NCBI GenBank assembly: GCA_040219235.1
Contig: JAVJSV010000005.1
Coordinates: 1 to 64,000, forward strand
DNA: 64,000 bases
Origin: Rhodospirillaceae bacterium
Lineage (GTDB): Bacteria; Pseudomonadota; Alphaproteobacteria; Rhodospirillales; Rhodospirillaceae
Direction: 5' to 3'
The notes under the pieces are model-generated. The model was given only the letters and a program-made list of their open reading frames with translations, was not told the DNA's origin and did no database searches. Below, one piece after another: positions 1,168 to 16,443 of the stretch. Positions within the stretch are counted from its first letter, which is position 1. Each line of letters begins with the position of its first letter. Position numbers and translations under genes: made by a program.

Positions 1168-2073
1168 CTAAATTTTCGCGGCCGTTTCTCGAATAACGCC
1201 TATCAAAGTCTGTGCTGCTGTCGTTAGCATTCCCTGAGCAGGGTAAGCGATCCCTATTGAAGATTTGATAGAAAAGCTTTTTTGCTCAATTCTTACCATT
1301 CTACCGAAATCTAATGCAGGCTGGGCGAACGGATCGGGCATCACGCATAGAAAGCTGGACCCGCAAGCCAATTCACGAATTAGATCAAAAGAATTAGTGA
1401 CCATTGAAACCTGAGGGTGCTTGATTTTCTGTTTATCAAATGCCGCGAACAACCACGTAGGCGTTGTAAAGATACTCAGTAGCCAATCGAATTCGGCACA
1501 TTCATTGAGAGAAACATCAGAGCACCCTGCCAATGGATGGTCACTCGCTACATAGATGCTGGATGAAAACTCTAGAACTGGTTCAATTTTTAAATTGGAG
1601 AATGAATTCAACTCTGAATTCAGTAGAACCAGTCCGAAATCCCACAAAGCGCCGTCAATCGCCTGATTTATTTCTTCAACGTTATGGGTTGATACCCTGA
1701 TATCCACCTTTACGCCGGGGTGTCGACGATGAAACTCAATGAGAGCTTTGTTGCCTAGAAAGGTCGATAAAACGGCACTCATGCCTATGGTGACCGCCCC
1801 CCCGCTTAAGCCTGTTAGATGGCGCGCATCTTCAAACGCTCTTTCTGATTCCCTCAAGGTTGAGCGAATTCTCCGTGCGAATACTTGGCCAGCAGCGGTT
1901 ACGTTTACACCTTTTGGGCCTCGTTCTAGTAAAGCAGTACCTACTTCTTCCTCCAAGGTTTTAACCGCCATGGATACTGAGGGCTGAGAGACATTTAGGG
2001 CGCGTGCCGCTGAGCTAAACCCGCCATGTTCCGTAACTGCTAAGAAGTATTTGAAGTGTCGTAAATCAGTCAT
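1168..2073 (-). CDS. LysR-family transcriptional regulator
   Basis: A 301-residue protein with the LysR layout: an N-terminal winged helix-turn-helix (about residues 1-62: FLAVTEHGGFSSAARALN, then SQPSVSMAVKTLEEEVG) and a C-terminal effector-binding domain (about 90-295). The frame stays open upstream to a TTG at 2103, but family proteins begin a few residues before the first helix, so the ATG at 2071-2073 (MTDLRHF) is preferred; an ATG at 2083-2085 is also possible. It is divergent from the PhyH-like dioxygenase at 2203, with a T-N11-A dyad between them, so it probably controls that gene and itself. The inducer cannot be told. Confidence 0.93.
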   Translation of the reverse strand: MTDLRHFKYFLAVTEHGGFSSAARALNVSQPSVSMAVKTLEEEVGTALLERGPKGVNVTAAGQVFARRIRSTLRESERAFEDARHLTGLSGGAVTIGMSAVLSTFLGNKALIEFHRRHPGVKVDIRVSTHNVEEINQAIDGALWDFGLVLLNSELNSFSNLKIEPVLEFSSSIYVASDHPLAGCSDVSLNECAEFDWLLSIFTTPTWLFAAFDKQKIKHPQVSMVTNSFDLIRELACGSSFLCVMPDPFAQPALDFGRMVRIEQKSFSIKSSIGIAYPAQGMLTTAAQTLIGVIRETAAKI

Positions 2074-2132
2074 TTTGGATCTCATTCTACCTATCAATAA
2101 CAACTATAACATATTCACTCATTATATTTGAC

Positions 2133-2151
2133 GCCTTTAGGTGTTTAAGGC
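2133..2151. promoter_or_regulatory. Putative LysR box (T-N11-A dyad)
   Basis: The dyad GCCTT-N9-AAGGC contains a T (2136) and an A (2148) separated by 11 bases, which is the classical LysR-type binding geometry. It sits between the divergent LysR gene (start 2073) and the dioxygenase (start 2203), where an autoregulating LysR protein normally binds. Binding is inferred. Confidence 0.5.
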
Positions 2152-2202
2152 TTCTTAGAGGTCGTAAATACCCATATGCATTGCTACGTGAGAGATAAAA
2201 CA

Positions 2203-3123
2203 ATGAATAAGCAACCGCTTCAGCCAGTCACTCAGGACCATATCGATACGTACGAGCGTGACGGGGTCGTGCTTCTGCAGGGGATGATTGACCAGGAGTG
2301 GGTCGAGCGTCTGACTTCTGCGTGGTTCAGAATGCGCACGGAAATCATCGAAGGTAAGCCCACCAATCACTTGCCCCAATGGATGCTCGAACAGGACCCT
2401 CTTTTGGCTGCAGAAGTCGAGGTCATGAATTCGAATGAAACGATGAGAAAGCGGATTGAGAGTAAGGTGCTCGGTGGTAAATATATGCACTTCTGGGATA
2501 GAGACTTCTTGGCCTATGCTATGGAGTCCCCAGCAGCAGAGATTGTTGGTCGCGTCATGAATTCGGACATGGTTCGTTTTTATTGGGATCAATTATTCGT
2601 CAAGGGCGCTAGCAATGATGCGATAACGTATTGGCATACAGACTACGCTGCGTGGCCCTGCAGTGGGCAAATGCTACCATCGTTTTGGTTGGCGCTTACT
2701 CCTATTGAGAAAGGCGTTAGCAGTCTAGAGTTCATAGCCGGTAGCCATAAAGATGAAACACTGCAGTGGCCGCGCACACTAAACGCGAGTCATTTGGAGC
2801 GCCCTGCTGATCGTCCAGATTTTATTGATTACGAAAGTTATCGTAACGATCCCGATGTAAAATTCCTATCTTTTGATATGAATCCTGGAGATGCCGTTCT
2901 CATTCATCCGCGTACTTATCATGGGGCTGGGGCAAATCCACACCCGACACGAGACCGTATTGCTCTGACAACACGCTGGCTTGGCGACGATATAACTTGG
3001 GACCCTCGACCCGAGTGCGTCAATACGCCCGGCCTACCCCTCAGTAAGATGGCCAAGGGAACGCCACCGAACGACGACGACTTGTTTCCCATTGCATGGC
3101 GTCGTTCGTCTTTGACCGCTTGA
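2203..3123 (+). CDS. Phytanoyl-CoA dioxygenase (PhyH) family protein
   Basis: A 306-residue cytoplasmic Fe(II)/2-oxoglutarate oxygenase. The metal-binding triad is visible: WHTDY gives His145 and Asp147, and HPRTYHG gives the distal His240, followed by Arg252 in DRIALTTRW, which should bind the 2-oxoglutarate carboxylate. The ATG at 2203 is preferred over an in-frame ATG at 2176 because GAGAG lies 8 bases upstream, while the upper start has its purine-rich stretch too far away. Family members hydroxylate varied substrates, not only phytanoyl-CoA, so the substrate stays open. It is divergent from a LysR gene and lies in a catabolic cluster between two IS copies. Confidence 0.9.
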   Translation: MNKQPLQPVTQDHIDTYERDGVVLLQGMIDQEWVERLTSAWFRMRTEIIEGKPTNHLPQWMLEQDPLLAAEVEVMNSNETMRKRIESKVLGGKYMHFWDRDFLAYAMESPAAEIVGRVMNSDMVRFYWDQLFVKGASNDAITYWHTDYAAWPCSGQMLPSFWLALTPIEKGVSSLEFIAGSHKDETLQWPRTLNASHLERPADRPDFIDYESYRNDPDVKFLSFDMNPGDAVLIHPRTYHGAGANPHPTRDRIALTTRWLGDDITWDPRPECVNTPGLPLSKMAKGTPPNDDDLFPIAWRRSSLTA

Positions 3124-3146
3124 ACACCAAGGAGTTATTGCAAGGA

Positions 3147-3163
3147 GCCTTTGTCTTAAAGGC
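3147..3163. terminator. Weak hairpin between convergent genes
   Basis: GCCTTT-GTCTT-AAAGGC forms a 6-bp stem, followed on the + strand by ACTGTTT. It lies between the end of the PhyH-like gene and the end of the IclR gene. The stem is short and the T-run poor, so a terminator role is only possible. Confidence 0.3.
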
Positions 3164-3208
3164 ACTGTTTAACTCAGCACGTTGAGCATGGCTGTGTCTA
3201 AAACGTAT

Positions 3209-4042
3209 TCAAGACTCCAGGGCATCAAATTCCAGGCCTATTGAACGTGCGGCTTCTTTCAAAGTCGGTAAGTATCGGTCAACCCCCTGCTTAAAGGACA
3301 TGGCTGATGAAAAGTACCGGAGTGCTAAAACTGCAAAGACGCGGGACTTCGAAAACACTGGAACAGCCAGGGCAGTAATCCGGTGTCCTCCGTCATGAAT
3401 AGCGTAACCTTCTTTGCGGATGTGAGCCATTTGGTTCTTAAGCATGGCACCGCTAGGAAGGGACGTTTCCTGGTTATCTCGCATAGATTTCCTAGCGAGT
3501 TCTATCAGAAAATCACGGTCTTTTTCCTCGCAGAATGCCAGATAAACAAGTCCGCCAGCGGTCGTAAGCATTGGCATGCGGGCGCCGATTGTCATGTAGT
3601 GGAGGGAGGTTGGACTTTGAGCATCTGTTGTGGCTCTGACGATCATTGTAGCACCGTGTGGAGTAACAAGTGATAGTGGCCACGTTTCGGTGTTATCTAA
3701 ATTTTCCATAATGGGCACCGCGGTTTTCCAAACCCACTTCTCCTGTGACATCCCTTCGCTCAGGCCTAAGACGGTTGGCTCCAGCCAATAGATTCCGCTG
3801 CTTTCGTCTCGACCGACGTACCCTCCTTCACGCAAAGTTTCTAGCAGTCGATAGGTTGTGCCTCTGGTGGCACCGATCAACTTTGCGACGGCATTGGTGT
3901 TCAGGCATTGGTAAGTGTTGAGGACTTCAATGACCCGCAGGCCCTTGAGCAGCGAGTTTACCCTATTTTTATTGGCTTTCGCCGCCTCGCTGCTTTCAAG
4001 AGGGTTCCAGCTTGGGTGGGGGTCGAGAGGCTTCTTCGCCAT
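3209..4042 (-). CDS. IclR-family transcriptional regulator
   Basis: 277 residues. An N-terminal winged helix-turn-helix lies at about residues 28-90 (NAVAKLIGATRGTTYRLLET, then GGYVGRDE), followed by the IclR effector-binding domain (about 105-270; RKEGYAIHDGG and ITALAVPVF are typical). IclR proteins usually control catabolic genes for aromatic or other small carboxylic substrates. It lies 83 bases downstream of the alpha/beta hydrolase on the same strand and may be co-transcribed with it. The likely targets are the hydrolase and the divergent run from 5342. Confidence 0.93.
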   Translation of the reverse strand: MAKKPLDPHPSWNPLESSEAAKANKNRVNSLLKGLRVIEVLNTYQCLNTNAVAKLIGATRGTTYRLLETLREGGYVGRDESSGIYWLEPTVLGLSEGMSQEKWVWKTAVPIMENLDNTETWPLSLVTPHGATMIVRATTDAQSPTSLHYMTIGARMPMLTTAGGLVYLAFCEEKDRDFLIELARKSMRDNQETSLPSGAMLKNQMAHIRKEGYAIHDGGHRITALAVPVFSKSRVFAVLALRYFSSAMSFKQGVDRYLPTLKEAARSIGLEFDALES

Positions 4043-4125
4043 GGTTAGGCCTGACTTCTCTTTTTTCTACACGGCACTATAGCCCAAACGCTCAAAGTCT
4101 TGGACTCGCTATGGTGTCGCGCGGA

Positions 4126-5118
4126 TTACTGAAAGCCATTGTCGCTGCTTGCACCTGTTGTCGTTTCCCCAAGCTGTGAAGACATGAGAAAGTCTTTTGC
4201 CATAGCGCCGGTTTCTTGTCCTTTTTCGATGGGAAGGAAGTGACCACCATCTTGTATCAAGTGAAATGTTGGAACGGTCGACGAAAACATATCTTCCATT
4301 GCCCGCTGGTCTTCGAGAGCCAAGGCACTGTTTGTTTGCGATGCAATAATGAGTGTCGGCGCGGAAATGGATCCTATAAGTCTGCTGATTTCCTCTACGT
4401 CGCGCTTTGCACCGGCACTGACAATTCGGGAACGTTCGGCCTTACCCTCACGATTGTTGAACGCCGCGTATTCTGCAATCAGTTCATCCGTGACTCGCGA
4501 AGGATCAAAAAAGATGATTTCCTCAAGCCAAACTCTGAAATAGAGCTCGGGCTGATATCCGCCTAGCAGGCCACCAACCCAAAATAAGGCTCTTAAGCGG
4601 GTCGATAGTTCGGGCGAGTCCTGCGGGAGCACTGGCGTATTGACCAGCAGCAGGTGGGTCACGCGTTCAGGATGTTTGGCGGCGTAGCGATAGGCAACGA
4701 CTGCGCCGCGAGAGGTGCCGCCGAGGGCAAATTCTTCAAGTCCAAGCTCATCGGCCAACATAGCTATCAATTCACCACTTCGGTCATGGCCGTGTTGTCC
4801 AGACGGGTCTGGGCCTGACAAACCCTCGGGAGGGTTGTCTATACGGATCACCCGGTAGTCAGCTTTGAGGGCCTCTGTCCAAGCATTCCACATATTGAGG
4901 TTGCCAAAGGCCCCGTGGATTAGAATGACCGGCGGCCCGGACCCTTCATCTTTATAACGAAGCGGAACCCCATCAATAGTGATGAATTGAGAACCATCAT
5001 TGGCATACCGTTCCCGAAGCACCTCGTCGGAATGGAAGAAAAACCCGAGCCTGGCTGCCACGATAACAACCGCGACTAAAAAACCTAAGGCGGCGAGCAA
5101 AAGGGCGAGAGTTTTCAT
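4126..5118 (-). CDS. Alpha/beta hydrolase with N-terminal membrane anchor
   Basis: 330 residues. One hydrophobic helix (about 3-26) probably anchors it in the inner membrane, followed by an alpha/beta hydrolase domain: oxyanion-strand motif LIHGAFGN (about 66-73), nucleophile elbow GGTSRG with Ser136, and late histidine His293 in DGGHFLP. The usual acidic residue after strand 7 is not obvious: SQTNSALALED has Asn where Asp is commonly found, and Asp270 could serve instead. It may be an esterase or C-C bond hydrolase acting on an intermediate of the neighbouring pathway. It is divergent from the run that starts at 5342. Confidence 0.85.
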   Translation of the reverse strand: MKTLALLLAALGFLVAVVIVAARLGFFFHSDEVLRERYANDGSQFITIDGVPLRYKDEGSGPPVILIHGAFGNLNMWNAWTEALKADYRVIRIDNPPEGLSGPDPSGQHGHDRSGELIAMLADELGLEEFALGGTSRGAVVAYRYAAKHPERVTHLLLVNTPVLPQDSPELSTRLRALFWVGGLLGGYQPELYFRVWLEEIIFFDPSRVTDELIAEYAAFNNREGKAERSRIVSAGAKRDVEEISRLIGSISAPTLIIASQTNSALALEDQRAMEDMFSSTVPTFHLIQDGGHFLPIEKGQETGAMAKDFLMSSQLGETTTGASSDNGFQ

Positions 5119-5341
5119 GTGAACAACCTTTTACAACTGGCAAACTGGATTTGCGACGTGCGTATTGGAAGTTGTTCTACAGTAACCAAGAACAGCTTTG
5201 GCGATTGCATACAATGGCGCCTGCGCTCGGATACCGGGCTTGGTCGCTCCCTGTGAGTGACTTATTATCTCTGCTTTGCATAACTGAATGACAATGAGGC
5301 CAAAATGAAACGGGCCGATAAAATAGAAAAAGGTTTTAAGT

Positions 5342-6277
5342 ATGACCGTAATCGCACTCCATTTGCCTGACATGATACCGCAGTGGTGGCTCGATACTTT
5401 GGCAGAGGGCTTGCCCGAGTGCATTCTCAAAAGATGGCCTAAAGAAATAGGCGACAAGTCTGAAGTCGACTATGTGATTACTCTCAAACCTGAGCCAAAT
5501 TCGCTCAGTGATTATCCAAGCCTAAAAGCAATTTTCGCAACTTCTGCTGGGGTTGATCATTTTATCGAAGATAATACGTTGCCAGCGAGCATCCCGCTTT
5601 GCCGGCTTACCAATCCTGAATTATCGGCGCGGATGTCCGAGTATGTCCTGCTGCATGTTCTCAGGTTTCACCGTCACCTAGCTGAATACCAAAACTTACA
5701 GTCAGAGAAAAAGTGGTCTCCAATTCAGCAGAAGGCGGCGTCTGATTCTACGGTTGGTATTATGGGTCTGGGCGCGTTGGGTCTTGATGCTGCTCAAAAA
5801 CTCAGAACGGTCGGGTTTAAAGTGCATAGCTGGAGCCAGTCGCAAAAACACGAAGAGGGTATCAAGAGTTATTTCGGGGATGATCAACTCTCCGGCTTTC
5901 TCAATACGTCCGACTATCTTGTGTGTTTTCTTCCCCTGACAGATAAAACACGCGGTATCCTTAATCGCAAAACCCTCGCCGAGTTACCCGATGGAGCCAT
6001 TGTTATCAACGTAGGCCGCGGTGCTTGTCTGGTAGAAACTGACATTATAACTGCTTTGGATGATGGCAAGCTAGCGGGCGCAGTACTCGATGTTTTTGGA
6101 ACCGAACCGCTTCCGGCTGAGCATCCTTTTTGGAAGCATCCCAAAGTTACAGTAACGCCTCATGTATCAACGGTTACGCATCCGCGGATGCTAGGGCCGT
6201 ACATTCGCGAGAATATTGCCCGTATCGAAGGCGGTCAGATACCGCTCAACGTTATTGATCGCTTGAACGGATATTGA
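5342..6277 (+). CDS. GhrA-like glyoxylate/hydroxypyruvate reductase (D-2-hydroxyacid dehydrogenase)
   Basis: 311 residues, the length of E. coli GhrA and resembling it along its length: the QWW start region, the quasi-conserved EY.L..VLR segment, and the DR.NGY end. The Rossmann motif GLGALG is at 142-147. The catalytic set is Arg226 (NVGRGA), Glu255 (GTEPLP) and His274 (TPHVS). Family enzymes reduce glyoxylate or hydroxypyruvate with NAD(P)H in the cytoplasm. It opens a same-strand run with the FAD oxidoreductase (14-base gap) and the TfdA-like dioxygenase, which suggests that it handles a 2-oxoacid product of that pathway. The exact substrate is inferred. Confidence 0.9.
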   Translation: MTVIALHLPDMIPQWWLDTLAEGLPECILKRWPKEIGDKSEVDYVITLKPEPNSLSDYPSLKAIFATSAGVDHFIEDNTLPASIPLCRLTNPELSARMSEYVLLHVLRFHRHLAEYQNLQSEKKWSPIQQKAASDSTVGIMGLGALGLDAAQKLRTVGFKVHSWSQSQKHEEGIKSYFGDDQLSGFLNTSDYLVCFLPLTDKTRGILNRKTLAELPDGAIVINVGRGACLVETDIITALDDGKLAGAVLDVFGTEPLPAEHPFWKHPKVTVTPHVSTVTHPRMLGPYIRENIARIEGGQIPLNVIDRLNGY

Positions 6278-6290
6278 GGTATCGCAATTA

Positions 6291-7700
6291 ATGACGATTT
6301 TGGCACCTAAGGAAGCCGCGTTTGTTGGGGACGTAAACGTCCTCATTATCGGGGGTGGTGGCTGTGGCTTATGCGCGGCGCTTGCAGTCCGCGATGCTGG
6401 AGGAGACGCTTTGGTGCTAGAACGTGATGCTACAGCTCTAGGCAGCACGGCAATGTCTACCGGGCTTATTCCAGCTGCTGGGACAAGATTCCAAGCTGAG
6501 AAGGGTATTGCCGATTCACCTGAGAAGTTTGTCGGGGATATTCTAAAGAAAACGCACGGCCAAACTGATACAAGCATGGCTAGGCACTTGGCAGAGGAAT
6601 CAGTTCCGACATTGGATTGGCTAGTGGATCACCACGCTGTCCCTCTGTCGCTCGTGGAGTCCTTTGATTTTCCTGGTCATTCGATGCGCAGAATGCATGG
6701 AACGCCCAATAGAACCGGCGCTGAACTGATGGGCGCGCTTCACAATGCAGTATCAGGTAGCGGCGCTGATGTGATCACCCAGGCACCAGCAACAGCGTTG
6801 TTTGCCGAAGATGACGGAACCATAAAAGGGGTTCGTGTGGAACGTGCCGATGGAACCACTGAAGATATCGGTTGTGGCGCCTTAGTGCTGGCCTGTAGTG
6901 GTTTTGCCGGAAACTCGAAATTGGTGGAGCAACACATCCCTGCAATTCAAGATGCCCTGTTCTTTGGGCATCCGGGAAATAAAGGTGATGCGCTTAATTG
7001 GGGGCTCAAGCTCGGTGCCGAAGTGGCAGACGTGAGTTCTTATCAGGGTCATGGCTCTGTTGCTGGAGATCATGGCGTATCGATTATGTGGGCTCATATT
7101 ACGCTTGGCGGCATTCAAGTGAATGCCAGCGGCAGACGTTTTTCCAATGAAGCCCTAGGATATTCTGAACAAGCAGCTCATGTTACTGCCCAGCACGGTG
7201 GGTTCGTCTGGAGCATTTACGACGAAGAGATTCACGAGCGGCTCAAGGAGTACGAAGACTATCGTGACGCGCTGGCCACGGGATGCGTGCTTTCAGCGGA
7301 TACCGTTGAAAGCCTGTGCCGCCAAACGAACCTGCCAGAGTCTTTGAGAAATACTTTAGAAACGGTTGAACAGCTGCGTGTCGGAATAGGCTCCGATGAA
7401 TGGGGTCGTGATTTTTCAAATTGCAAGCCTTTAAAACCACCGTTTAAAGCGGTGAAAGTGAATGGCGCACTATTTCACACCCAAGGCGGGCTCTGTGTTG
7501 ACAATAGTGGGCAGGTAAAGAGGCAAGACGGCAGTCTATTCCCTAACCTTTTTGCTGGCGGAGGGGCTGCGCGGAGTATCTCCGGGCCTTCGGCGGACGG
7601 TTACCTGTCGGGCAACGGTCTTTTGACGGCAACAACTTATGGCCGTTTGGCAGGTTTTGCTGCAGCGGATCTTGTGAATGGGACTCAAAATGAGATTTGA
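6291..7700 (+). CDS. FAD-dependent oxidoreductase (fumarate reductase / ketosteroid dehydrogenase-like flavoprotein)
   Basis: 469 residues. A dinucleotide-binding fold opens the protein (VLIIGGGGCGLCAA, about 18-30) with LVLERD ending the first beta-alpha-beta unit and GSTAMSTG as the second FAD contact. Near the end, NLFAGGGAARSISG and GYLSGNGLL are typical of the fumarate reductase/KstD superfamily, which moves hydrogens across C-C bonds using FAD. The start follows the GhrA-like gene closely, and the TfdA-like gene begins 21 bases downstream. Substrate unknown; a dehydrogenation or reduction step in the cluster's pathway is inferred. Confidence 0.88.
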   Translation: MTILAPKEAAFVGDVNVLIIGGGGCGLCAALAVRDAGGDALVLERDATALGSTAMSTGLIPAAGTRFQAEKGIADSPEKFVGDILKKTHGQTDTSMARHLAEESVPTLDWLVDHHAVPLSLVESFDFPGHSMRRMHGTPNRTGAELMGALHNAVSGSGADVITQAPATALFAEDDGTIKGVRVERADGTTEDIGCGALVLACSGFAGNSKLVEQHIPAIQDALFFGHPGNKGDALNWGLKLGAEVADVSSYQGHGSVAGDHGVSIMWAHITLGGIQVNASGRRFSNEALGYSEQAAHVTAQHGGFVWSIYDEEIHERLKEYEDYRDALATGCVLSADTVESLCRQTNLPESLRNTLETVEQLRVGIGSDEWGRDFSNCKPLKPPFKAVKVNGALFHTQGGLCVDNSGQVKRQDGSLFPNLFAGGGAARSISGPSADGYLSGNGLLTATTYGRLAGFAAADLVNGTQNEI

Positions 7701-7721
7701 TTTATCTATTGGGAGGTTCGT

Positions 7722-8615
7722 ATGACACTAACGGTGCGTCGACTTGGAAAATCCTTCGCGGCTGAGGTTCGCGGCCTGGATTTGCGCCAGTCTATTGATA
7801 AAGAAACTTTTTCGGAACTATACGACCTGTTTCTTTCATATGGTGTTTTGGTTTTACCTGGTCAAGCAGTCTCTGTTGATCAACACCTCGCCTTCGCAAG
7901 CCATTTCGGCGAAATATGGACTCTACCAGTCGATGATCCTTCAAAACTGAGAGTAAAGAATGCGGCTATCGACGACGTGTCTAATTTAGACACCAAAGGT
8001 GAGATTGCCGGCACAAATTCAGAAAAATATATGTTTGCCCTAGGCAATCAGCTTTGGCACTCGGATCTTTCGTTCAGAGATGTGCCCGCGCAGGCATCTT
8101 TGCTTCACGCCGAGGAGATCGCGTTAGTTGGAGGAGAAACTGAATTTGCTGATTTGATAGCGGCATACGATGCGCTGTCCGAAGATATGCGGACTAAAAT
8201 TGATGGCCTCATCGCCAAACATAGTCTTCTGCACTCACGCCAGCGTATGGGCTACAATAAAATAACAGACGAACAGCGAGCAAAATTTCCCCCAGCGTTT
8301 CAGCCACTGGCACGTGTCCATCCTGATACGGGTAAGAAAAATCTTTATATCGGTGCTCATGCCTTCGCAGTCGAGGGACTGCCTGATGAGGAAGGTCAGG
8401 CGTTACTTGACCAATTGTTGAAATTCGCGACTGAAGATCGGTTTGTATATCGCCATCGCTGGGCCGTTTATGATCTTGTGATCTGGGATAACCGGCGGGC
8501 ATTACATCGTGGGCGGCCATACGATGCGGACCGTGAGCGCCGCGTGATGCATCGTGTAACTATTCAAGGTAAAGGCAAGACGGTTCAGAATGGTCAAATT
8601 ATTGCCGGGATGTGA
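7722..8615 (+). CDS. TauD/TfdA-family 2-oxoglutarate-dependent dioxygenase, TfdA-like
   Basis: 297 residues, matching the 2,4-dichlorophenoxyacetate dioxygenase (TfdA) branch in length and in many blocks: NQLWHSDLSF, GGETEF, AAYDAL, IGAHA, VEGLP, FVYRHRW, DLVIWDNR and LHRGRPYD. The Fe(II) ligands are His113, Asp115 and His262; Arg273, 11 residues after the distal His, should bind 2-oxoglutarate, as in TfdA. TfdA itself cleaves an aryl ether and releases glyoxylate from the side chain. A related O-dealkylation here is inferred; other family members act on sulfonates or other acids. A good Shine-Dalgarno (GGGAGG) precedes the ATG. Confidence 0.9.
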   Translation: MTLTVRRLGKSFAAEVRGLDLRQSIDKETFSELYDLFLSYGVLVLPGQAVSVDQHLAFASHFGEIWTLPVDDPSKLRVKNAAIDDVSNLDTKGEIAGTNSEKYMFALGNQLWHSDLSFRDVPAQASLLHAEEIALVGGETEFADLIAAYDALSEDMRTKIDGLIAKHSLLHSRQRMGYNKITDEQRAKFPPAFQPLARVHPDTGKKNLYIGAHAFAVEGLPDEEGQALLDQLLKFATEDRFVYRHRWAVYDLVIWDNRRALHRGRPYDADRERRVMHRVTIQGKGKTVQNGQIIAGM

Positions 8616-8680
8616 CGCGTGCAGACTCTGATTTTATCAGTCATTGGTATAGGCCTGTCAGTCATCAAGGGGGCATGGTA

Positions 8681-10213
8681 ATGGCAAACTACTTACGACG
8701 CTTAGCGGTTCGGTATGCCGCAGTTGTTCATTGCGTTTTAGCACTCTGCATTGCGAGCGCTGGAGCCTCTGCGGAGACACTGCGGGTTGCCAGAGCGGCC
8801 GGTCCAGCAGGTTTAGGTAATCCCTTCACCAGCGTTGCACAACCGTCCTCCGGTGTGTGGAGTCTGGTGTTTGACTCTCTGACGATGTTTGATGAGTCTC
8901 GCACTTTACAGCCGGGTCTTGCAGTGTCATGGCGAGCTACATCGGAAACGACTTGGGAATTCGACATAAGGCCCGAGGTCCAATTCCATAACGGTCGCAC
9001 ATTAGATGCAACGGCGGCGGCAGAAGCCATCGGACTGTTACTAAAGGAAGAAGCGCGCACATATTATGTTTACCCTAATGTTCAGACGTTATCCGCTGTA
9101 CGTGCACTTAATGACCTGACAATTGAGATTGAAACGGATGGGCCTGATCCCATTTTACCTCAGCGCCTTTCGCAGTTGATGATTGTGGAGCCTAGGGTTT
9201 GGAGTGATTTGGGTCCGGTTGGTTTCTCGCAATCACCCGTCGGAACAGGTCCATATCAGCTAAAAGGCTGGGGGCGTGGCAACACCAAAATCGAGCTTGT
9301 TACATTTGAACAGTCTTGGCGGCGCGCGGAGGACATAACGCAGATCGAAATGGTCATTATGCCTGACACTGTTTCGAGATCTCAGGCGCTTCTATCCGGT
9401 GTTGTCGATGTCGCAGAGACTGCGAGCCGATCATTCGCAGCAGAAGCGCGCTCGGACATAAAATCATTTTTATATCCGACATTTCAGGTTTCCATGCTGA
9501 CCTATCGCCTTGTCGGCAATGAGGAGAGCCCACTCATGGACCCCCGGGTTCGTGAGGCACTAACCTACACGGTTAATCGGCAAGCCATAACCGATGTTAT
9601 TTATGAAGGGGATGTTCACCCAGCTAATCAACCCGTTACGCCAGAAATCATAGGTTTTAACGAAGAATTACCGGCGATTCCCTATGATCTTGAACGGGCG
9701 AGGTCTCTTTTAGCGGAGGCCGGGTATCCCGGCGGATTTGCTCTCGAAGCTGAATTTGTAAATGGCTCGACGGACGAAGCATTGCAAATGCTGCAGTTGA
9801 TAGCTCAGGACATGGCCAGTATAGGCGTTAAACTCAGCCTAAACCCAACAACAATTCAGAATTTCTTTTACCAGTGGCAGAGTGGAGACTGGGGGGATAC
9901 CGATCTATTCTTGGCGTTGTCGGACGGCAGTGTTTTCTTTGATGCCGTTCGGCCTCTTCGCATACTCTCGTGCGAGAAGCCTAATCCTTTTGTCTGCAAT
10001 GAAAAGCTAACTCAAAGGCTTGGCGAAATAGAAGGGGACATGGATCTCCACAGGCGAACCGAAAACCTCAAAGCACTGGTTGCTGACGTCGTCGCTGATT
10101 ACCCTGCTATTTGGTTGACGACGACTTCAACTCGTGTGCTTGCCACGGATCGTGTGGATGAGATGCCGATTCGACCCCAAGGAATCGCGATCGAAAGAAT
10201 CAAACTGCACTAA
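8681..10213 (+). CDS. ABC transporter solute-binding protein, family 5 (peptide/nickel/opine type)
   Basis: 510 residues with a signal peptide (MANYLRRLAVRYAAVVHCVLA, cut near ASA) and a family 5 binding domain: SLVFDSLTMFD, W.FDIR..V.FHNG, PVGTGPY, DPRVREALTYTVNR and ARSLLAEAGYPGG. The ATG at 8681 is chosen because AAGGGGG lies 7 bases upstream and it places the signal peptide at the N-terminus; the frame is open back to a GTG at 8612 overlapping the previous stop. It should bind an oligopeptide or other small molecule in the periplasm. No permease or ATPase genes lie nearby, so it must use distant ones or act alone. Confidence 0.9.
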   Translation: MANYLRRLAVRYAAVVHCVLALCIASAGASAETLRVARAAGPAGLGNPFTSVAQPSSGVWSLVFDSLTMFDESRTLQPGLAVSWRATSETTWEFDIRPEVQFHNGRTLDATAAAEAIGLLLKEEARTYYVYPNVQTLSAVRALNDLTIEIETDGPDPILPQRLSQLMIVEPRVWSDLGPVGFSQSPVGTGPYQLKGWGRGNTKIELVTFEQSWRRAEDITQIEMVIMPDTVSRSQALLSGVVDVAETASRSFAAEARSDIKSFLYPTFQVSMLTYRLVGNEESPLMDPRVREALTYTVNRQAITDVIYEGDVHPANQPVTPEIIGFNEELPAIPYDLERARSLLAEAGYPGGFALEAEFVNGSTDEALQMLQLIAQDMASIGVKLSLNPTTIQNFFYQWQSGDWGDTDLFLALSDGSVFFDAVRPLRILSCEKPNPFVCNEKLTQRLGEIEGDMDLHRRTENLKALVADVVADYPAIWLTTTSTRVLATDRVDEMPIRPQGIAIERIKLH

Positions 10214-10445
10214 GTCAGTCGCAGATTAGGGCAGTGAACGTTACCTATGGCGACTCTAGAGCTAAATTCAATGCGTCGCATCCCTCATAAGATAACGAAT
10301 AACACCTAATAGGCCGCGGCCAACGGACAGGGCTGGATCGGACTCCGGGCTAGTCTTCGATTCCGCTCGTCGCTATGTAACCAAACAGACATCATTTCCT
10401 CACAGACACTTTTCTAATTTCACGAGTCTCGAGAAGGGGAAAGAG

Positions 10446-12788
10446 ATGACTAAGCGCAAAATTGCAACGGCCCTCATCGCGGGCATTACTGTCAGCACTT
10501 CAGCTGGTATTGTGCAGGCACAATCAACTGATTCACGACCAGCAGTAGCGCTCGAAGAAATCGTGGTATCGGCCCGTAAACGAGAAGAATCAGTTCTCGA
10601 TGTCCCGTTTGCTATTACAGCTCTGACGGCTGCTGACCTTGAGGCTAGCAATCTCAAAGACTTAAAGGACGTTCAAAATTTCACGCCGGGGTTCTTTTTC
10701 TCTGAATTTGGCGCTGGGCGCGGAGACCGCGGAATCCGTAACTTTGTGCTTCGAGGCATCAACGTTTCAGCGTTCGTCAATGCCAATGATGCTGCCATTG
10801 CGTTCGTAGACGGCGCACCGGTTGTCAGCGGAGAAGTCACGTCCTTTACAGAGGTTGAGCGTGTTGAAGTTCTGCGCGGCCCCCAAACCGCCTATTTTGG
10901 CCGCAACACTTTTAGCGGTGCGATTAACATTATCACCAAGACACCAGGTGACGAATGGCGCGGTAAAGTCAGTGCTCAATATGCCTCTCCGGGTTCGACG
11001 GACCTGGCGTTTACGGTTGAGGGCCCGCTTGTTGAGGGGCGCCTCTCAGCGCGGTTAACCGCCACGCATCTTGACAAGAAAGGTGATTACACAAACTCGG
11101 CCGATGGTTCTACGCTTGGTGACCGTCAAACTCGCTCGCTTGCTGGCACATTGTACGCAACACCCAATGAGCAGCTATCGATAAAAGTTTTTGGTGAGTA
11201 CGCGCGTTTCGACGATGGCACCGGCGCATCAGGACGATTAGACAGCGTTACCCAATCGAATTGCGATGCAAACGGTGGTGGTGCCAACAACTGGTTTTGT
11301 GGAGTTGTGCCCGATATTGACACGACCACGCTCGGGTCAAACGCCGCTATCGACGACATTTTTATCGAAAACGTTATCGAACCGTTTTCACTGTTCGATA
11401 ATTCGTTCATTAAGAAAGCTGGGCTAGCCAAGAAGAACGTGTCACTTCACGGCATCGTTCAGTATGAATTCGCCGATGGATATGCCTTTGAAGCAATCAC
11501 AGCCTATCATAGTTCGAAATCTATGATTGTGTCCGACGAAAGTACACGCGACACGAAGAATGTTCCTGCCGTTGCAAATCCGTTCCGTGCCTCTAGCCCT
11601 TTCAACTTTCTCATTGAGCGAGATTTCAAAGACTTTTCGCAAGAGCTCAGGTTATCCTCTCCGCAGGATCACTCTCTGCGGTGGACAGCGGGCGCCACGT
11701 ACGTCCATCCTAAAATTATTGCAAGTTCAGTGTCGGGCGAGCTTGATTTGGCTCAACCGTTTCGCCAGTTCAGTACTTTTCCTACGTTTACGTCAGATAC
11801 ATATGGCTTTTTCGGTGGCGTCTACTATGACATCACCGATGACTTCACCATAAGTGCGGAGGCCCGGTATCAGATTGATGATGTCACGGTCGACGTCCCT
11901 GGTTTGGAGGAAACTTTCAAGAGCCTTGCGCCGCGGGTGACTCTTGAGTACCGGCCTAACGAAGACTGGAATTTGTTTGTTAACTGGGCCCGAGGGTACC
12001 GGCCGGGGGCGTTTAACGCGCGGCTCTTGACTTTGGCACCCGATGTCGCAGCTGAAATTGTCCGTCAGACAGGTGCTCAAGTCGGAATCGACGAGGAGTC
12101 GATGGACATGTACGAGGTGGGCGCTAAAGGGTCATTTTGGGACCGTCGAGGCACTCTGAGCGTGGTTGGGTACACAGGTAAAATTTCGAATCAGCAAATC
12201 ACAAGTACGGCATTCGTTGATATCAATAACACTGGATCGATCAGTGGGCTTCAGGTTGTCAATAATGCCGGCAGTACCGACCTGATGGGTGTTGAAGCCG
12301 AAGCCGCGTTGGTGTTCCCGGTAGCAGAGTCTGATGAGTTGCTGCTCAATGGCTCGTTCGCATGGAATGATGTTGAGTTCGAAGAATACTTCTGCTCGAC
12401 ATGCGTTCTCTATTCCAGCACGGGTGACGTTGCAGGTAACAGGTTTCCCAAAGCTCCTGCCTATACGGCAACCCTGACTGGAACCTATTCACATCCATTG
12501 CAATCTGGTTTGGAACTCTATGGGCGCGCCGAATACATCTATACAGGCAGTTTCTTCGCAACAGAGGCTAATCTTGCAAGATCCGGTAGTGCCAATCGTG
12601 TGAACTTAAGGGTTGGTTTAATAGCAGATGATTGGTCCGTCGAAGGGTTCGTTTCGAATCTAACGAACGATGATACAGTTCTGTCGATCGAGCGTCAGGG
12701 CGATCCAAGGAACCCGGGCCGTCAAACAGTCGCGTTTGGCCTACCTGACAAGCGGAACTACGGCATCCGAGTCAAATATGAATTCTAG
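10446..12788 (+). CDS. TonB-dependent outer membrane receptor
   Basis: 780 residues. A signal peptide (cut near VQAQ) is followed by a TonB-box-like LEEIVVSARKREE (about 36-48), then the plug domain (about 50-165: VPFAITALTA, RGI..FVLRGI, EVLRGPQTAYFGRNTFSGAINI), then a 22-strand-type barrel ending in YGIRVKYEF with terminal Phe, the outer membrane insertion signal. It imports a scarce or large substrate with energy from TonB/ExbBD. GGGGAAAG precedes the ATG. Its place after the solute-binding protein suggests that it brings the pathway substrate across the outer membrane. A strong terminator follows. Confidence 0.95.
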   Translation: MTKRKIATALIAGITVSTSAGIVQAQSTDSRPAVALEEIVVSARKREESVLDVPFAITALTAADLEASNLKDLKDVQNFTPGFFFSEFGAGRGDRGIRNFVLRGINVSAFVNANDAAIAFVDGAPVVSGEVTSFTEVERVEVLRGPQTAYFGRNTFSGAINIITKTPGDEWRGKVSAQYASPGSTDLAFTVEGPLVEGRLSARLTATHLDKKGDYTNSADGSTLGDRQTRSLAGTLYATPNEQLSIKVFGEYARFDDGTGASGRLDSVTQSNCDANGGGANNWFCGVVPDIDTTTLGSNAAIDDIFIENVIEPFSLFDNSFIKKAGLAKKNVSLHGIVQYEFADGYAFEAITAYHSSKSMIVSDESTRDTKNVPAVANPFRASSPFNFLIERDFKDFSQELRLSSPQDHSLRWTAGATYVHPKIIASSVSGELDLAQPFRQFSTFPTFTSDTYGFFGGVYYDITDDFTISAEARYQIDDVTVDVPGLEETFKSLAPRVTLEYRPNEDWNLFVNWARGYRPGAFNARLLTLAPDVAAEIVRQTGAQVGIDEESMDMYEVGAKGSFWDRRGTLSVVGYTGKISNQQITSTAFVDINNTGSISGLQVVNNAGSTDLMGVEAEAALVFPVAESDELLLNGSFAWNDVEFEEYFCSTCVLYSSTGDVAGNRFPKAPAYTATLTGTYSHPLQSGLELYGRAEYIYTGSFFATEANLARSGSANRVNLRVGLIADDWSVEGFVSNLTNDDTVLSIERQGDPRNPGRQTVAFGLPDKRNYGIRVKYEF

Positions 12789-12868
12789 CTCGCCGGGGTC
12801 AATCAACTTTTGATCGGGTTGCTATCCGAATATCAAGGTGTTCTCTATCCTCTCCCCAAAAGAGGAGG

Positions 12869-12918
12869 CTGGCTGCAGGTCAACTCTCCAGACCTGCAGC
12901 CAGTAATTTGGTTTTTTT
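12869..12918 (+). terminator. Rho-independent terminator after the TonB receptor
   Basis: A perfect 13-bp stem (CTGGCTGCAGGTC at 12869-12881 with its complement at 12891-12903) and a 9-base loop are followed after 8 bases by a run of seven T (12912-12918). It ends transcription of the run that starts upstream and separates it from the M24 peptidase gene. Confidence 0.8.
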
Positions 12919-13029
12919 ACAGCTTATCAGATATTGCGGCTAGTTGATCGGCGCTGAGCTAGAAGGGACAACCGCTATGCACCAATGAAAAGTTGCTTTG
13001 TACGTGTGCTTGATTGCAGGATTTAAGAA

Positions 13030-14433
13030 ATGAATACGACTGACTCACCTAAGAAAATTAACGACCTGCCTCCATCACGTCAGGATTCCTCTGCTGGTGT
13101 GCGGGTCGGTCATGCGAAGGCCAGTGATTTGAATTTCGACAAATGGCGTAATCCTGAACTTATCAGGCACACCAAGTCAGCAGATAGGCTGGTCAACCTT
13201 GAACGCGCCTATGAGGTGATGGACCGAAATGGGTTGGCTGGAATTGTCGCTTCGACGCCCTTGAACATCTACTATCTATCTAGCCATGGCGGAATCACGC
13301 AATGGATGGGCCGCCCATTCACGTCCTTCGCATTCCTGCCCCGGGACGAAAACGCTTCTCCCGCGCTGATTATGCCGCATTTCAATCTTTATCACCTCGA
13401 CTATCGCCCAACGTGGATGCCGTCAGTGCAGCCTTATTCGATGCCTTTGCTGAGTGAGGATGGGCAACTGGAATGGGATGATGAGGGAAGTCTTCGCGCA
13501 ACACAGAGCGCCAGTATATGGCCAGTACGCGAGGGTTCTCTGAATAAGCGTGATCACACGCTCTTGGCCATCTTTGCGGAATACCAAGGGAAGATGAGTG
13601 CGAATGCGATTTACGCACTCAAGAAAGCGATTGTCGAAGGTGGAGCCAAGGGTGGGGCCGTTGGATTCGATGACCCCCGCCTCGGTCACTGGCTCAAAGA
13701 TGCCGGGTTATCTGAGATGAGCACGGTTGATGCGACGAACATATTTAAAGAAATTCGAATGGTGAAGACGTCGCCAGAGGTTGAGCTCCTAAGAGCAGCT
13801 GCCGTAAAGAATGAAGAGGCCCTTGATTACGCTATCGAGCAGATTGCTCCGGGCGTTCCGTTGTCTGAAGTCGAAAGAGCGCATGCCCAAAAGTGGGGAG
13901 AACTGGACGGCCGCGGAAAGTGGCTGATCGCCAATATCAATGGATTGAATTCCGGTGAAGTTGAAGTAGGCGACTTTATGAAGCTCGACAGTGTTGGCGT
14001 TTATCGCGGCTATCATGGCGATGTCGGGCGCACGGTTATGGTGGGATATCCACCTGACGAACTTGTTAGGCGCATTGAGGCCGACACCAAGTGTGCAAAA
14101 GTCGTTTATGACTCCATCCGCCCAGGAATGCTGTTCTCCGAAGCGACGTCGATCTTTATATCTCTGATGAAAGATGAAGGCTTTGCCGCGATGGCTGCTC
14201 CTCATAATGTTGGGCTCGAACACACAGACCAGCCGTTTACTGCCCTTGGCCATATTCCGGAATCCGTCGGCAATGATTTTACGTTCGAGAACGGCACAGT
14301 GTTCACGCTCGATATGCCCCACAATGAGATTGGCTGGGGAACGACTCACGTAGAGGATATGATGCTCGTTCATGAGAATGGGTGCGAGGCGCTGTCATCA
14401 ATGGATACTAGTCTACGCATTCGCCCAGCCTAG
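13030..14433 (+). CDS. M24-family metallopeptidase homologue (Xaa-Pro peptidase/creatinase fold)
   Basis: 467 residues. An N-terminal creatinase-like domain (about 50-240) is followed by a pita-bread catalytic domain (about 250-460). The metal-ligand pattern is partly standard: Asp320 and Asp331 (spacing 11; DVGRT), His398 (NVGLEHTDQP) and Glu442 (HVEDMM). The fourth position has Asp428 (FTLDMP) where family members usually have Glu. AGGA lies 8 bases before the ATG. The fold includes aminopeptidase P, creatinase, ectoine hydrolase and the DMSP lyase DddP; the sequence does not follow DddP as I remember it. It may hydrolyse a C-N bond in the cluster's substrate. Confidence 0.85.
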   Translation: MNTTDSPKKINDLPPSRQDSSAGVRVGHAKASDLNFDKWRNPELIRHTKSADRLVNLERAYEVMDRNGLAGIVASTPLNIYYLSSHGGITQWMGRPFTSFAFLPRDENASPALIMPHFNLYHLDYRPTWMPSVQPYSMPLLSEDGQLEWDDEGSLRATQSASIWPVREGSLNKRDHTLLAIFAEYQGKMSANAIYALKKAIVEGGAKGGAVGFDDPRLGHWLKDAGLSEMSTVDATNIFKEIRMVKTSPEVELLRAAAVKNEEALDYAIEQIAPGVPLSEVERAHAQKWGELDGRGKWLIANINGLNSGEVEVGDFMKLDSVGVYRGYHGDVGRTVMVGYPPDELVRRIEADTKCAKVVYDSIRPGMLFSEATSIFISLMKDEGFAAMAAPHNVGLEHTDQPFTALGHIPESVGNDFTFENGTVFTLDMPHNEIGWGTTHVEDMMLVHENGCEALSSMDTSLRIRPA

Positions 14434-14530: not shown

Positions 14531-15625
14531 CTGTCCTTCCCGAAAACCTCATCCGCTTGAAATATGCGGCGATCATCTATAACCCGGAAAGATGATCGAA
14601 TTTGCGGGCCTCTTACTTCTTAGTCTCACTGCGCTGTTCAAAAGCCCGCAACGGCTGGCCGCAGAGAATGTCGTGCTGAGGCATCAAGTGTCGGTTTTGA
14701 GGCGGAAGCATCCGGGTCGTGTCCGGGTTTCCCGCATTGATCGGTTGTTTCTGAGTTGGCTGACAAAGGTATTCCCTTCAGTTCTTGACGCCATTGTCAT
14801 TGTGAAGCCTGAGACAGTCTTGCGATGGCATCGGCACGGGTTCAGTGTGCTTTGGCGCTGGAAATCCCGCAAGTTTGGTGGTCGGCCCGTCATTGATAGC
14901 GAGATGCGCGATCTCATCAAGATGATAGCCCGCGACAATCCGCTATGGGGTGCTCCACGCATCCATGGAGAGTTGCTGAAACTGGGTTTTGACGTCTCCG
15001 AGTCCACGGTGAGCAAGTACCTCACCAAGTTTTACAGGCCTAGCGGACAAAGCTGGAAAACATTCATTAAGAACCACTCAGATGCGATCGTGGGGGTGGA
15101 TTTATTTGTCGTGCCAACAGTGGGCTTCAAGCTTCTCTATGGAATAGCGATTCTACACTTAAGAAGCCGCAAACTTGTTTGGACCAACGCTACCTATCAT
15201 CCCACAGCGGAGTGGATTGCCAATCAAGTCACCCAAGCCTTTCCCTGGGAGACTGCGCCGCAGTACCTCATTCGCGACCGAGATGCCAGCTATGGCAAGG
15301 TATTCAAGAGACGGTTAGGCTCAATGGGCATAAGGGACCGACCAACCTCATTCAGATCGCCTTGGCAAAACGGTTATGTCGAGCGTGTTATCGGGTCGAT
15401 CCGCCGAGAATGTCTGGATCACAAAATTATCTTCGGCGAGGCTCACTTGCGCCGAACACTGAAGAATTATGCCCGATACTACAATTGGGCTCGGACGCAT
15501 CTATCTCTCGATAAAAACTCCCCGATTCCAAGGCCTGTTGAGGCATGATGGTGCTATCGCCAAGCGTCAGCACCTCGGCGGATTACACCACGAGTACCGG
15601 CGGATGAGGTAAAAACGAGGGACAG
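14531..15625 (+). mobile_element. IS element, copy 2
   Basis: 1095 bp, same orientation as the copy at 1-1094. Left inverted repeat 14531-14555 (CTGTCCTTCC...CCTCATCCG) and right inverted repeat 15601-15625 (CGGATGAGGT...GGGACAG) match at about 18 of 25 positions, with both ends best conserved. The left end is identical to the first 25 bases of the window. Flanks GCACGATC and TGAATGAA show no target-site duplication. It sits 97 bases after the M24 gene and just before the toxin-antitoxin genes. Confidence 0.88.
14592..15548 (+). CDS. IS transposase, DDE integrase type
   Basis: 318 residues. The N-terminal region has LRHQVSVLRRK and GAPRIHGELLKLGF; the integrase core carries a DDE triad at Asp170 (GVDLFVVPT), Asp229 (RDRDASYG) and Glu264 (GYVERVIGS). 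It ends at RPVEA. The copy at 63-1081 continues with a further stretch ending GGLHHEYRRM, and here the same ending appears one frame off (up to TAA at 15610-15612). One extra base near 15543 seems to have cut off about 20 C-terminal residues. The core is complete, so activity is possible but uncertain. Confidence 0.88.
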   Translation: MIEFAGLLLLSLTALFKSPQRLAAENVVLRHQVSVLRRKHPGRVRVSRIDRLFLSWLTKVFPSVLDAIVIVKPETVLRWHRHGFSVLWRWKSRKFGGRPVIDSEMRDLIKMIARDNPLWGAPRIHGELLKLGFDVSESTVSKYLTKFYRPSGQSWKTFIKNHSDAIVGVDLFVVPTVGFKLLYGIAILHLRSRKLVWTNATYHPTAEWIANQVTQAFPWETAPQYLIRDRDASYGKVFKRRLGSMGIRDRPTSFRSPWQNGYVERVIGSIRRECLDHKIIFGEAHLRRTLKNYARYYNWARTHLSLDKNSPIPRPVEA

Positions 15626-15710: not shown

Positions 15711-16025
15711 ATGCACGCTGATATTGCAGCCAAACGCTCAGATTTGATCGCTCTTTGCCGCCAATTCGGCGTTGCTCGTTTCGAGGTGTTTGGCTCAGCT
15801 GCGCGCGGAAACGACTTCGATACCGAACACAGCGATGCGGATTTTCTCGTCACCTTTGAGCCAGAGACTCGCAATGACCTCGCTGTCTTCATCGACTTCA
15901 AGGACGCGTTGGAAGCGCTGCTGGGTCGTCCTGTAGATCTTGTCGAACGCGAAGCCGTCGAGTCTAGCCGAAATCATATCCGCCGGAACGCCATTCTCGC
16001 TGGAGCCCAAGCCATCCATGGCTAG
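15711..16025 (+). CDS. mntA: MntA-like nucleotidyltransferase antitoxin
   Basis: 104 residues, a minimal nucleotidyltransferase: FGSAARG (27-33) and SDAD (41-44) give the metal-binding acid pair. The gap between GS and DxD is 12 residues, while the family pattern usually shows 10. In characterised MntA/HepT pairs the antitoxin adds AMP to a tyrosine of the HEPN toxin and so silences it. The stop overlaps the start of the HepT-like gene by 8 bases, the normal arrangement for this pair. It begins 85 bases after the right end of the IS. Confidence 0.88.
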   Translation: MHADIAAKRSDLIALCRQFGVARFEVFGSAARGNDFDTEHSDADFLVTFEPETRNDLAVFIDFKDALEALLGRPVDLVEREAVESSRNHIRRNAILAGAQAIHG

Positions 16026-16443
16026 TGAGTCGGGACAGGCTCCGCCCGGTGGCGGTGCGCCTGGCTCCAAACCGCCGGGCGAGCAAAGAAACCCGGATAT
16101 TCAAGATGACCGTGACACTGCCTTGCTACTCGATATGCTACTGGCTGCCCGCGATGCCCGGGCCTTTGTCGCAGGCTTGGATGAAACTGTTTTCCTGACT
16201 AGCCGTCTACATCAGAATGCCGTCATCCGGTCGCTTGAGGTGATTGGTGAGGCTGCCGGGCGCGTCTCGCCCGCCACCGTCGCGGCACATCCCGACATTT
16301 CATGGCGTGAGATAACGGGCATGCGTCACCGCCTTATCCATGGCTACGGCGATGTTCGGCTTGATCTGGTCTGGACCATTGTCCGCGATCATTTGCCGCC
16401 GCTGATCGACGGCCTCACCAGGCTGCTTCCCGAAGGCGGATGA
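16018..16443 (+). CDS. hepT: HepT-like HEPN-domain toxin (DUF86)
   Basis: 141 residues. The DUF86/HEPN domain starts at about residue 30 (DDRDTALLLDMLLAARDA) and carries the RNase motif Rx4HxY as Arg103-His108-Tyr110 (RHRLIHGY). The Tyr is the residue AMPylated by MntA in studied systems. The ATG at 16018 overlaps the antitoxin stop. The first 29 residues are rich in Pro and Gly and are not part of the usual domain; no better start is visible. The stop lies inside a CGGATGAGGTAAA sequence that matches the IS right end. Confidence 0.87.
   Translation: MASESGQAPPGGGAPGSKPPGEQRNPDIQDDRDTALLLDMLLAARDARAFVAGLDETVFLTSRLHQNAVIRSLEVIGEAAGRVSPATVAAHPDISWREITGMRHRLIHGYGDVRLDLVWTIVRDHLPPLIDGLTRLLPEGG

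Follow-up and report, generated by a model that had tools for sequence, protein, structure and literature searches.

The closest described relatives of the dioxygenase treated here are pJP4 TfdA and AAD-2, both characterised as ether-cleaving dioxygenases. TfdA-like dioxygenases are widespread and often multicopy in alphaproteobacteria; to our knowledge, the natural substrates of most of them are unknown, and no direct study of marine TfdA-like enzymes was found in the literature. The stretch of DNA analysed here, called the window, comprises positions 1 to 64,000 (64,000 nucleotides, forward strand) of contig JAVJSV010000005.1 from a Rhodospirillaceae bacterium (assembly GCA_040219235.1), and carries a TfdA-like gene in one operon with genes for a GhrA-like dehydrogenase and a flavoprotein. 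An earlier note had read these three genes as a possible route by which the dioxygenase frees glyoxylate from an ether- or N-alkyl acid and the dehydrogenase reduces it. The analysis led to a broader reading, to which we give even chances: a regulated catabolic island for uptake and oxidation, in which the TfdA relative would carry out one oxidation, placed between two related but different insertion sequence (IS) elements. Nothing in the DNA shows the release of glyoxylate or the compound consumed.

The operon and its TfdA-like dioxygenase

The three genes claimed for 5342–8615 were recovered as open reading frames (ORFs) on one strand, with the flavin adenine dinucleotide (FAD) enzyme indeed lying between the other two, and a fourth gene follows them:

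5342–6277, + strand: GhrA-like D-2-hydroxyacid dehydrogenase, 311 aa, first gene of the operon (Pfam 2-Hacid_dh_C, 4e-50)
6291–7700, + strand: FAD_binding_2 flavoprotein, 469 aa (Pfam, 3e-48)
7722–8615, + strand: TfdA-like Fe(II)/2-oxoglutarate dioxygenase, 297 aa (Pfam TauD/TfdA, 6e-63)
8675–10213, + strand: secreted peptide/nickel-type solute-binding protein, SBP_bac_5 (SBP5 below; Pfam, 5e-61)

The gaps of 13 bp (dehydrogenase to flavoprotein) and 21 bp (flavoprotein to dioxygenase), together with the intact frames, suggest selection for co-expression, and the layout is that of one tight predicted operon, continued by the gene for the peptide-type binding protein. The ORF of the latter was listed from a GTG at 8612, which overlaps the dioxygenase gene; its signal peptide begins near 8675/8681, about 60 bp past that gene, and the two are probably on the same transcript. 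A scan for consensus promoters and terminators gave no signal above shuffled sequence. At the level of sequence, the family resemblances of the three enzymes are not chance similarity.

The characterised or solved proteins nearest by sequence to the window dioxygenase are AAD-2 (5bke, 3e-66), 5j92 (3e-59) and pJP4 TfdA (45% identity over 91% of the query), with TauD and RdpA far behind (~1e-36). In a maximum-likelihood tree it stood among 41 rows on the TfdA side, split with a support of 98/96 from 20 others on the TauD/RdpA side, and so on the opposite side from Escherichia coli TauD rather than with the taurine enzymes, a grouping that the earlier note had set against its own proposal. An AlphaFold2 model (mean pLDDT, the predicted local distance difference test, of 90) found its best structural match in AAD-2 (template modelling score 0.90/0.97, root-mean-square deviation 1.3), then in 5j92, and then in RdpA/AAD-1 and TauD. 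The TfdA-like call was thus upheld by tree, fold and nearest relatives. Taurine, dropped as a candidate on the tree placement, is an unlikely substrate for what sequence and model indicate to be a TfdA-like enzyme; the NCBIfam TauD score was 174.5, below the cut-off of 313, and PtlD and ScoE were among the NCBIfam matches. Use of alkylsulfates was also set aside, the alkylsulfatases being much weaker matches.

The residues of the active site were compared in an alignment of 61 relatives of the window dioxygenase. TfdA His114, Asp116, Thr141 and His263 correspond there to His113, Asp115, Thr140 and His262, and TfdA Arg274 and Arg278 to residues of the same numbers. The metal ligands named earlier (His113, Asp115, His262) therefore match TfdA, but the co-substrate arginine had been placed one residue too early: positions 273 and 274 are both Arg, and the one that corresponds is Arg274, because the window protein is longer by one residue between the second His and the Arg. 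The likeness to TfdA and AAD-2 thus extends over length, fold, the 2-His-1-Asp metal site, the Thr and Arg for 2-oxoglutarate, and the second Arg (278).

The differences are of three kinds. Within the TfdA side, the window protein sits on a long branch of 0.78 and falls outside the group of pJP4 TfdA, AAD-2 and 5j92, with a support of 88/79 for the fork that excludes it, and this branching outside the characterised ether cleavers is indicative only. TfdA Lys95 and Ser117, which mutagenesis papers reportedly place near the substrate, are replaced by Glu94 and Leu116; these replacements do not exclude ether cleavage, because the same positions also vary in 5j92. Unlike TfdA, finally, the dioxygenase has no tfd genes beside it. 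According to a review (PMC11357097), substrate specificity in the tfdA-like family does not follow the diversity of its sequences, so the substrate is not settled by sequence. Within the genus, no TfdA-like match exceeds ~36%. On a first look, three families of the order (f27, f19 and f23) carry many candidate genes of the TfdA/TauD type per genome, up to ~95, and at two loci (L009, L014) such genes stand in tandem arrays.

The partner enzymes and the search for the triplet

The comparison of the first enzyme with GhrA was borne out in part. GhrA enzymes are the solved proteins nearest to it (3e-71), the catalytic Arg226, Glu255 and His274 of D-2-hydroxyacid dehydrogenases are in place, and fold family, length and alignment through the C-terminus agree; against the NCBIfam GhrA equivalog, however, it scored 263.8 bits where the cut-off is 403, so the choice of 2-oxoacid is not fixed by sequence, and it shares ~39–45% identity with annotated GhrA-type enzymes on plasmids. 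It is a common enzyme type: of 240 genomes sampled from the class, 86 have a homolog at E < 1e-60.

The flavoprotein shares the FAD_binding_2 fold and the HT.GG motif with flavocytochrome c, urocanate reductase and tricarballylate dehydrogenase, but has no heme domain and reached 230.1 bits for the flavocytochrome c subfamily, below the cut-off of 285. In flavocytochrome c fumarate reductase, arginines serve in carboxylate binding and proton donation; in an alignment with 1d4c these were found to be replaced in the window protein, so that fumarate-type activity is unlikely, and fumarate or tricarballylate chemistry was rejected. The protein belongs instead to a subfamily (members mostly 45–60% identical), present in 41 of 385 sampled genomes of the class, in which HTQGG (396–400) and the subfamily's own Tyr438 are conserved in 39 of 39. 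It may act on a position adjoining the carbonyl of a ring or an amide.

Many members of this subfamily lie in a conserved cluster with hydantoinases A and B (HyuA, HyuB), an isochorismatase-type hydrolase, a lyase of the isocitrate-lyase/phosphoenolpyruvate (PEP)-mutase type and a LeuC-type dehydratase, whereas in the genome under study and in one other family (f60) they adjoin or lie near SBP5 genes instead. The alphaproteobacterial cluster was seen at L055 (5167–13260), L144, L147, L151, L152, L154, L156 and L159–L161; its gene content would suit a pathway acting on a cyclic imide or a substituted dicarboxylate, and no direct study of it was found in the literature.

The recurrence of the triplet was followed by tblastn on loci fetched for each of the three genes. 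The GhrA–FAD–TfdA combination, for which the earlier note had proposed a co-occurrence search, was present at none of the ~90 homologous loci (0 of 36 TfdA-like, 0 of 20 GhrA-like and 0 of 34 FAD-family), an absence that is not absolute, some contigs being short; nor did this FAD subfamily have a TfdA neighbour at any locus searched. One TfdA-like locus has an adjoining distant flavoprotein (24%), and three have some 2-hydroxyacid dehydrogenase within ~10 kb, roughly what would be expected, by estimate, from the count of such genes per genome. Plasmid records contained no closer relatives, and two Novosphingobium plasmids (L051, L052) with PhyH and M24 homologs do not share the operon.

The surrounding island

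The operon lies within an island of 10 genes and 13 kb (1168–14433) between two IS elements; neither this wider unit nor the flanking elements had been listed in the earlier note. The remaining genes and the borders are as follows:

63–980, + strand: IS481-like transposase, left border (ORF; 3′ end truncated or frameshifted)
1168–2103, − strand: LysR regulator, divergent from the PhyH gene (Pfam HTH_1, LysR_substrate)
2176–3123, + strand: PhyH-family Fe(II)/2-oxoglutarate dioxygenase (Pfam PhyH, 1.8e-21; start at 2176 or a few codons later)
3209–4042, − strand: IclR regulator of the PRK09834/PcaR/PobR kind (below curated cut-offs)
4126–5118, − strand: alpha/beta hydrolase, divergent from the operon at 5342 (Pfam Abhydrolase_1, 1e-18)
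10446–12788, + strand: TonB-dependent outer-membrane receptor (Pfam Plug, TonB_dep_Rec_b-barrel)
13030–14433, + strand: M24 metallohydrolase with the metal-ligand pattern D, D, H, D, E (Pfam Peptidase_M24; alignment)
14592–15548, + strand: IS481-like transposase, right border (ORF)

The left border is seen in part only, the contig starting at base 1 of the window. The two IS copies are 76–78% identical rather than near-identical, the left one matching the right at 78% in DNA, and a composite transposon was rejected on that account. The island was not found in 73 genomes of the family, and its gene set was found in no other genome searched. Among the genomes examined it is private to this species, because no FAD homolog above 61% occurs in those 73 genomes (congeners carry only types that are 44–61% identical) and the TfdA-like match within the genus is as low as given above.

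The IclR type, PRK09834 being presumably MhpR, gives a weak hint of an aromatic acid as inducer. Among solved structures, the PhyH protein is nearest to MysH (PDB 9pze, 9e-26), a PhyH-family dioxygenase of mycosporine biosynthesis, but the matched stretches cover part of the PhyH protein only and the island has no further gene recognisable as a mycosporine one; a mycosporine-related function was rejected, with neither genes in the island nor anything in the literature to support it.

PhyH, LysR and TonB receptor genes also occur together elsewhere in the same genome of 4 Mb (L108, L222 and L223), with SBP5 close by at the last two of these loci; L108 has an M24 paralog (64% identity) and, further off, an SBP5 paralog (40%). 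The flavoprotein has a paralog of 60% identity in the genome, and at L107 an SBP5 gene adjoins a FAD paralog. These paralogous loci suggest a recurrent layout for uptake and oxidation. The M24 subfamily to which the window protein belongs (L088–L106) has D in place of E as its fourth metal ligand and the motif D[ML]P..E.G[WF]G; genomes of family f60 carry several copies of it, and so does the genome under study, in which a TonB receptor lies within ~5 kb at 4 of 4 M24 loci examined.

What the island may do

In the reading of a regulated uptake-and-oxidation island, the TonB receptor and the periplasmic binding protein would import a small organic compound, whose amide or ester bonds the M24 and alpha/beta hydrolases would open. 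With Fe(II), O2 and 2-oxoglutarate, the TfdA-like enzyme might then hydroxylate a carbon beside O or N, or another C–H, of an acid-bearing intermediate, which would fall apart or become oxidisable; the flavoprotein could remove or add hydrogen beside a carbonyl, and the GhrA-like enzyme could interconvert a 2-oxoacid and a D-2-hydroxyacid arising on the way. This 2-oxoacid could be glyoxylate but need not be. The reading draws on the operon gaps, the enzyme families, the intact catalytic residues of dioxygenase and dehydrogenase, the AAD-2 fold and the placement on the TfdA side, and also on the uptake genes in the island, the paralogous loci, the flanking IS elements and the lack of a close FAD homolog.

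Several observations weigh on the other side. No gene of the island has a known substrate, no ABC (ATP-binding cassette) permease genes adjoin the SBP5 gene, and aromatic-ring or phenol-degrading genes are absent from the island. The uptake repertoire of the genome is large, with 48 SBP_bac_5 genes and 46 TonB-dependent receptors, and in a random-placement test the closeness of SBP5 and TonB receptor genes was at the level of chance (7 of 48, with 6.0 expected); FAD–SBP5 and PhyH–TonB closeness was weakly above chance (p ~0.02, discounted for several tests). At present the locus adds to the catabolic islands whose substrate is not known, and no new pathway is demonstrated. Its operon, which joins a TfdA relative of deep branching to a 2-oxoacid reductase, a flavoprotein and uptake genes, is nonetheless a concrete place to seek a natural substrate.

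Possible, though doubtful, is that the dioxygenase simply hydroxylates or desaturates an organic acid and cleaves neither an ether nor a C–N bond, the dehydrogenase then oxidising a D-2-hydroxyacid intermediate. The functional breadth of the TauD/TfdA superfamily, to which the PtlD and ScoE matches attest, is in keeping with this, as are the many TfdA-like copies carried by genomes of several families in the order and the suitability of both flavoprotein and dehydrogenase for the oxidation of hydroxy- and oxo-acids; yet the nearest characterised relatives, by sequence and by fold, cleave ethers.

We regard as unlikely the route of the earlier note, in which glyoxylate would be split from an oxyacetic or N-carboxymethyl acid by the TfdA-like enzyme and then reduced to glycolate by the GhrA-like one. 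Ancestry on the TfdA side, the AAD-2 fold, the GhrA relatives of the dehydrogenase and the tight operon speak for it, but the enzyme branches outside the characterised ether cleavers (a split not strongly supported), tfdA-like diversity does not track substrate, Glu94 and Leu116 stand in place of TfdA Lys95 and Ser117, and the triplet does not co-occur elsewhere. A further point against it is that malate synthase (PF01274) had no match in the genome (99.85% complete), which leaves no sign of the usual route from glyoxylate into central metabolism. The reductase would be one outlet for glyoxylate, other outlets not having been searched, and is compatible with the earlier idea without establishing it. 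Of that idea the family call and the operon stand, whereas the ether- or N-alkyl acid pathway was over-specific, given the missed GhrA cut-off and the solitary triplet. Quite unlikely, too, is a more elaborate version, an undescribed route for a natural aryl/alkyl ether (or N-carboxymethyl) acid. This acid would be imported through the TonB receptor, opened by the M24 or alpha/beta hydrolase, split by the deep-branching TfdA relative so as to give glyoxylate or another 2-oxoacid, and handled by a flavoprotein of an uncharacterised subfamily.

Highly improbable is a recent mosaic assembled by IS-driven shuffling and serving no single pathway, which the IS elements at the borders and the separate histories of the genes (FAD with HyuAB/LeuC/lyase or SBP5; GhrA and TfdA homologs in unrelated settings) would suit, but against which stand the short gaps with intact frames and the several components shared with the paralogous loci. 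Directly after the right IS element, an MNT nucleotidyltransferase-like gene is followed by a HEPN/DUF86-like gene (15711–16443), an arrangement that, read from the sequence, resembles an MNT–HEPN toxin–antitoxin pair.

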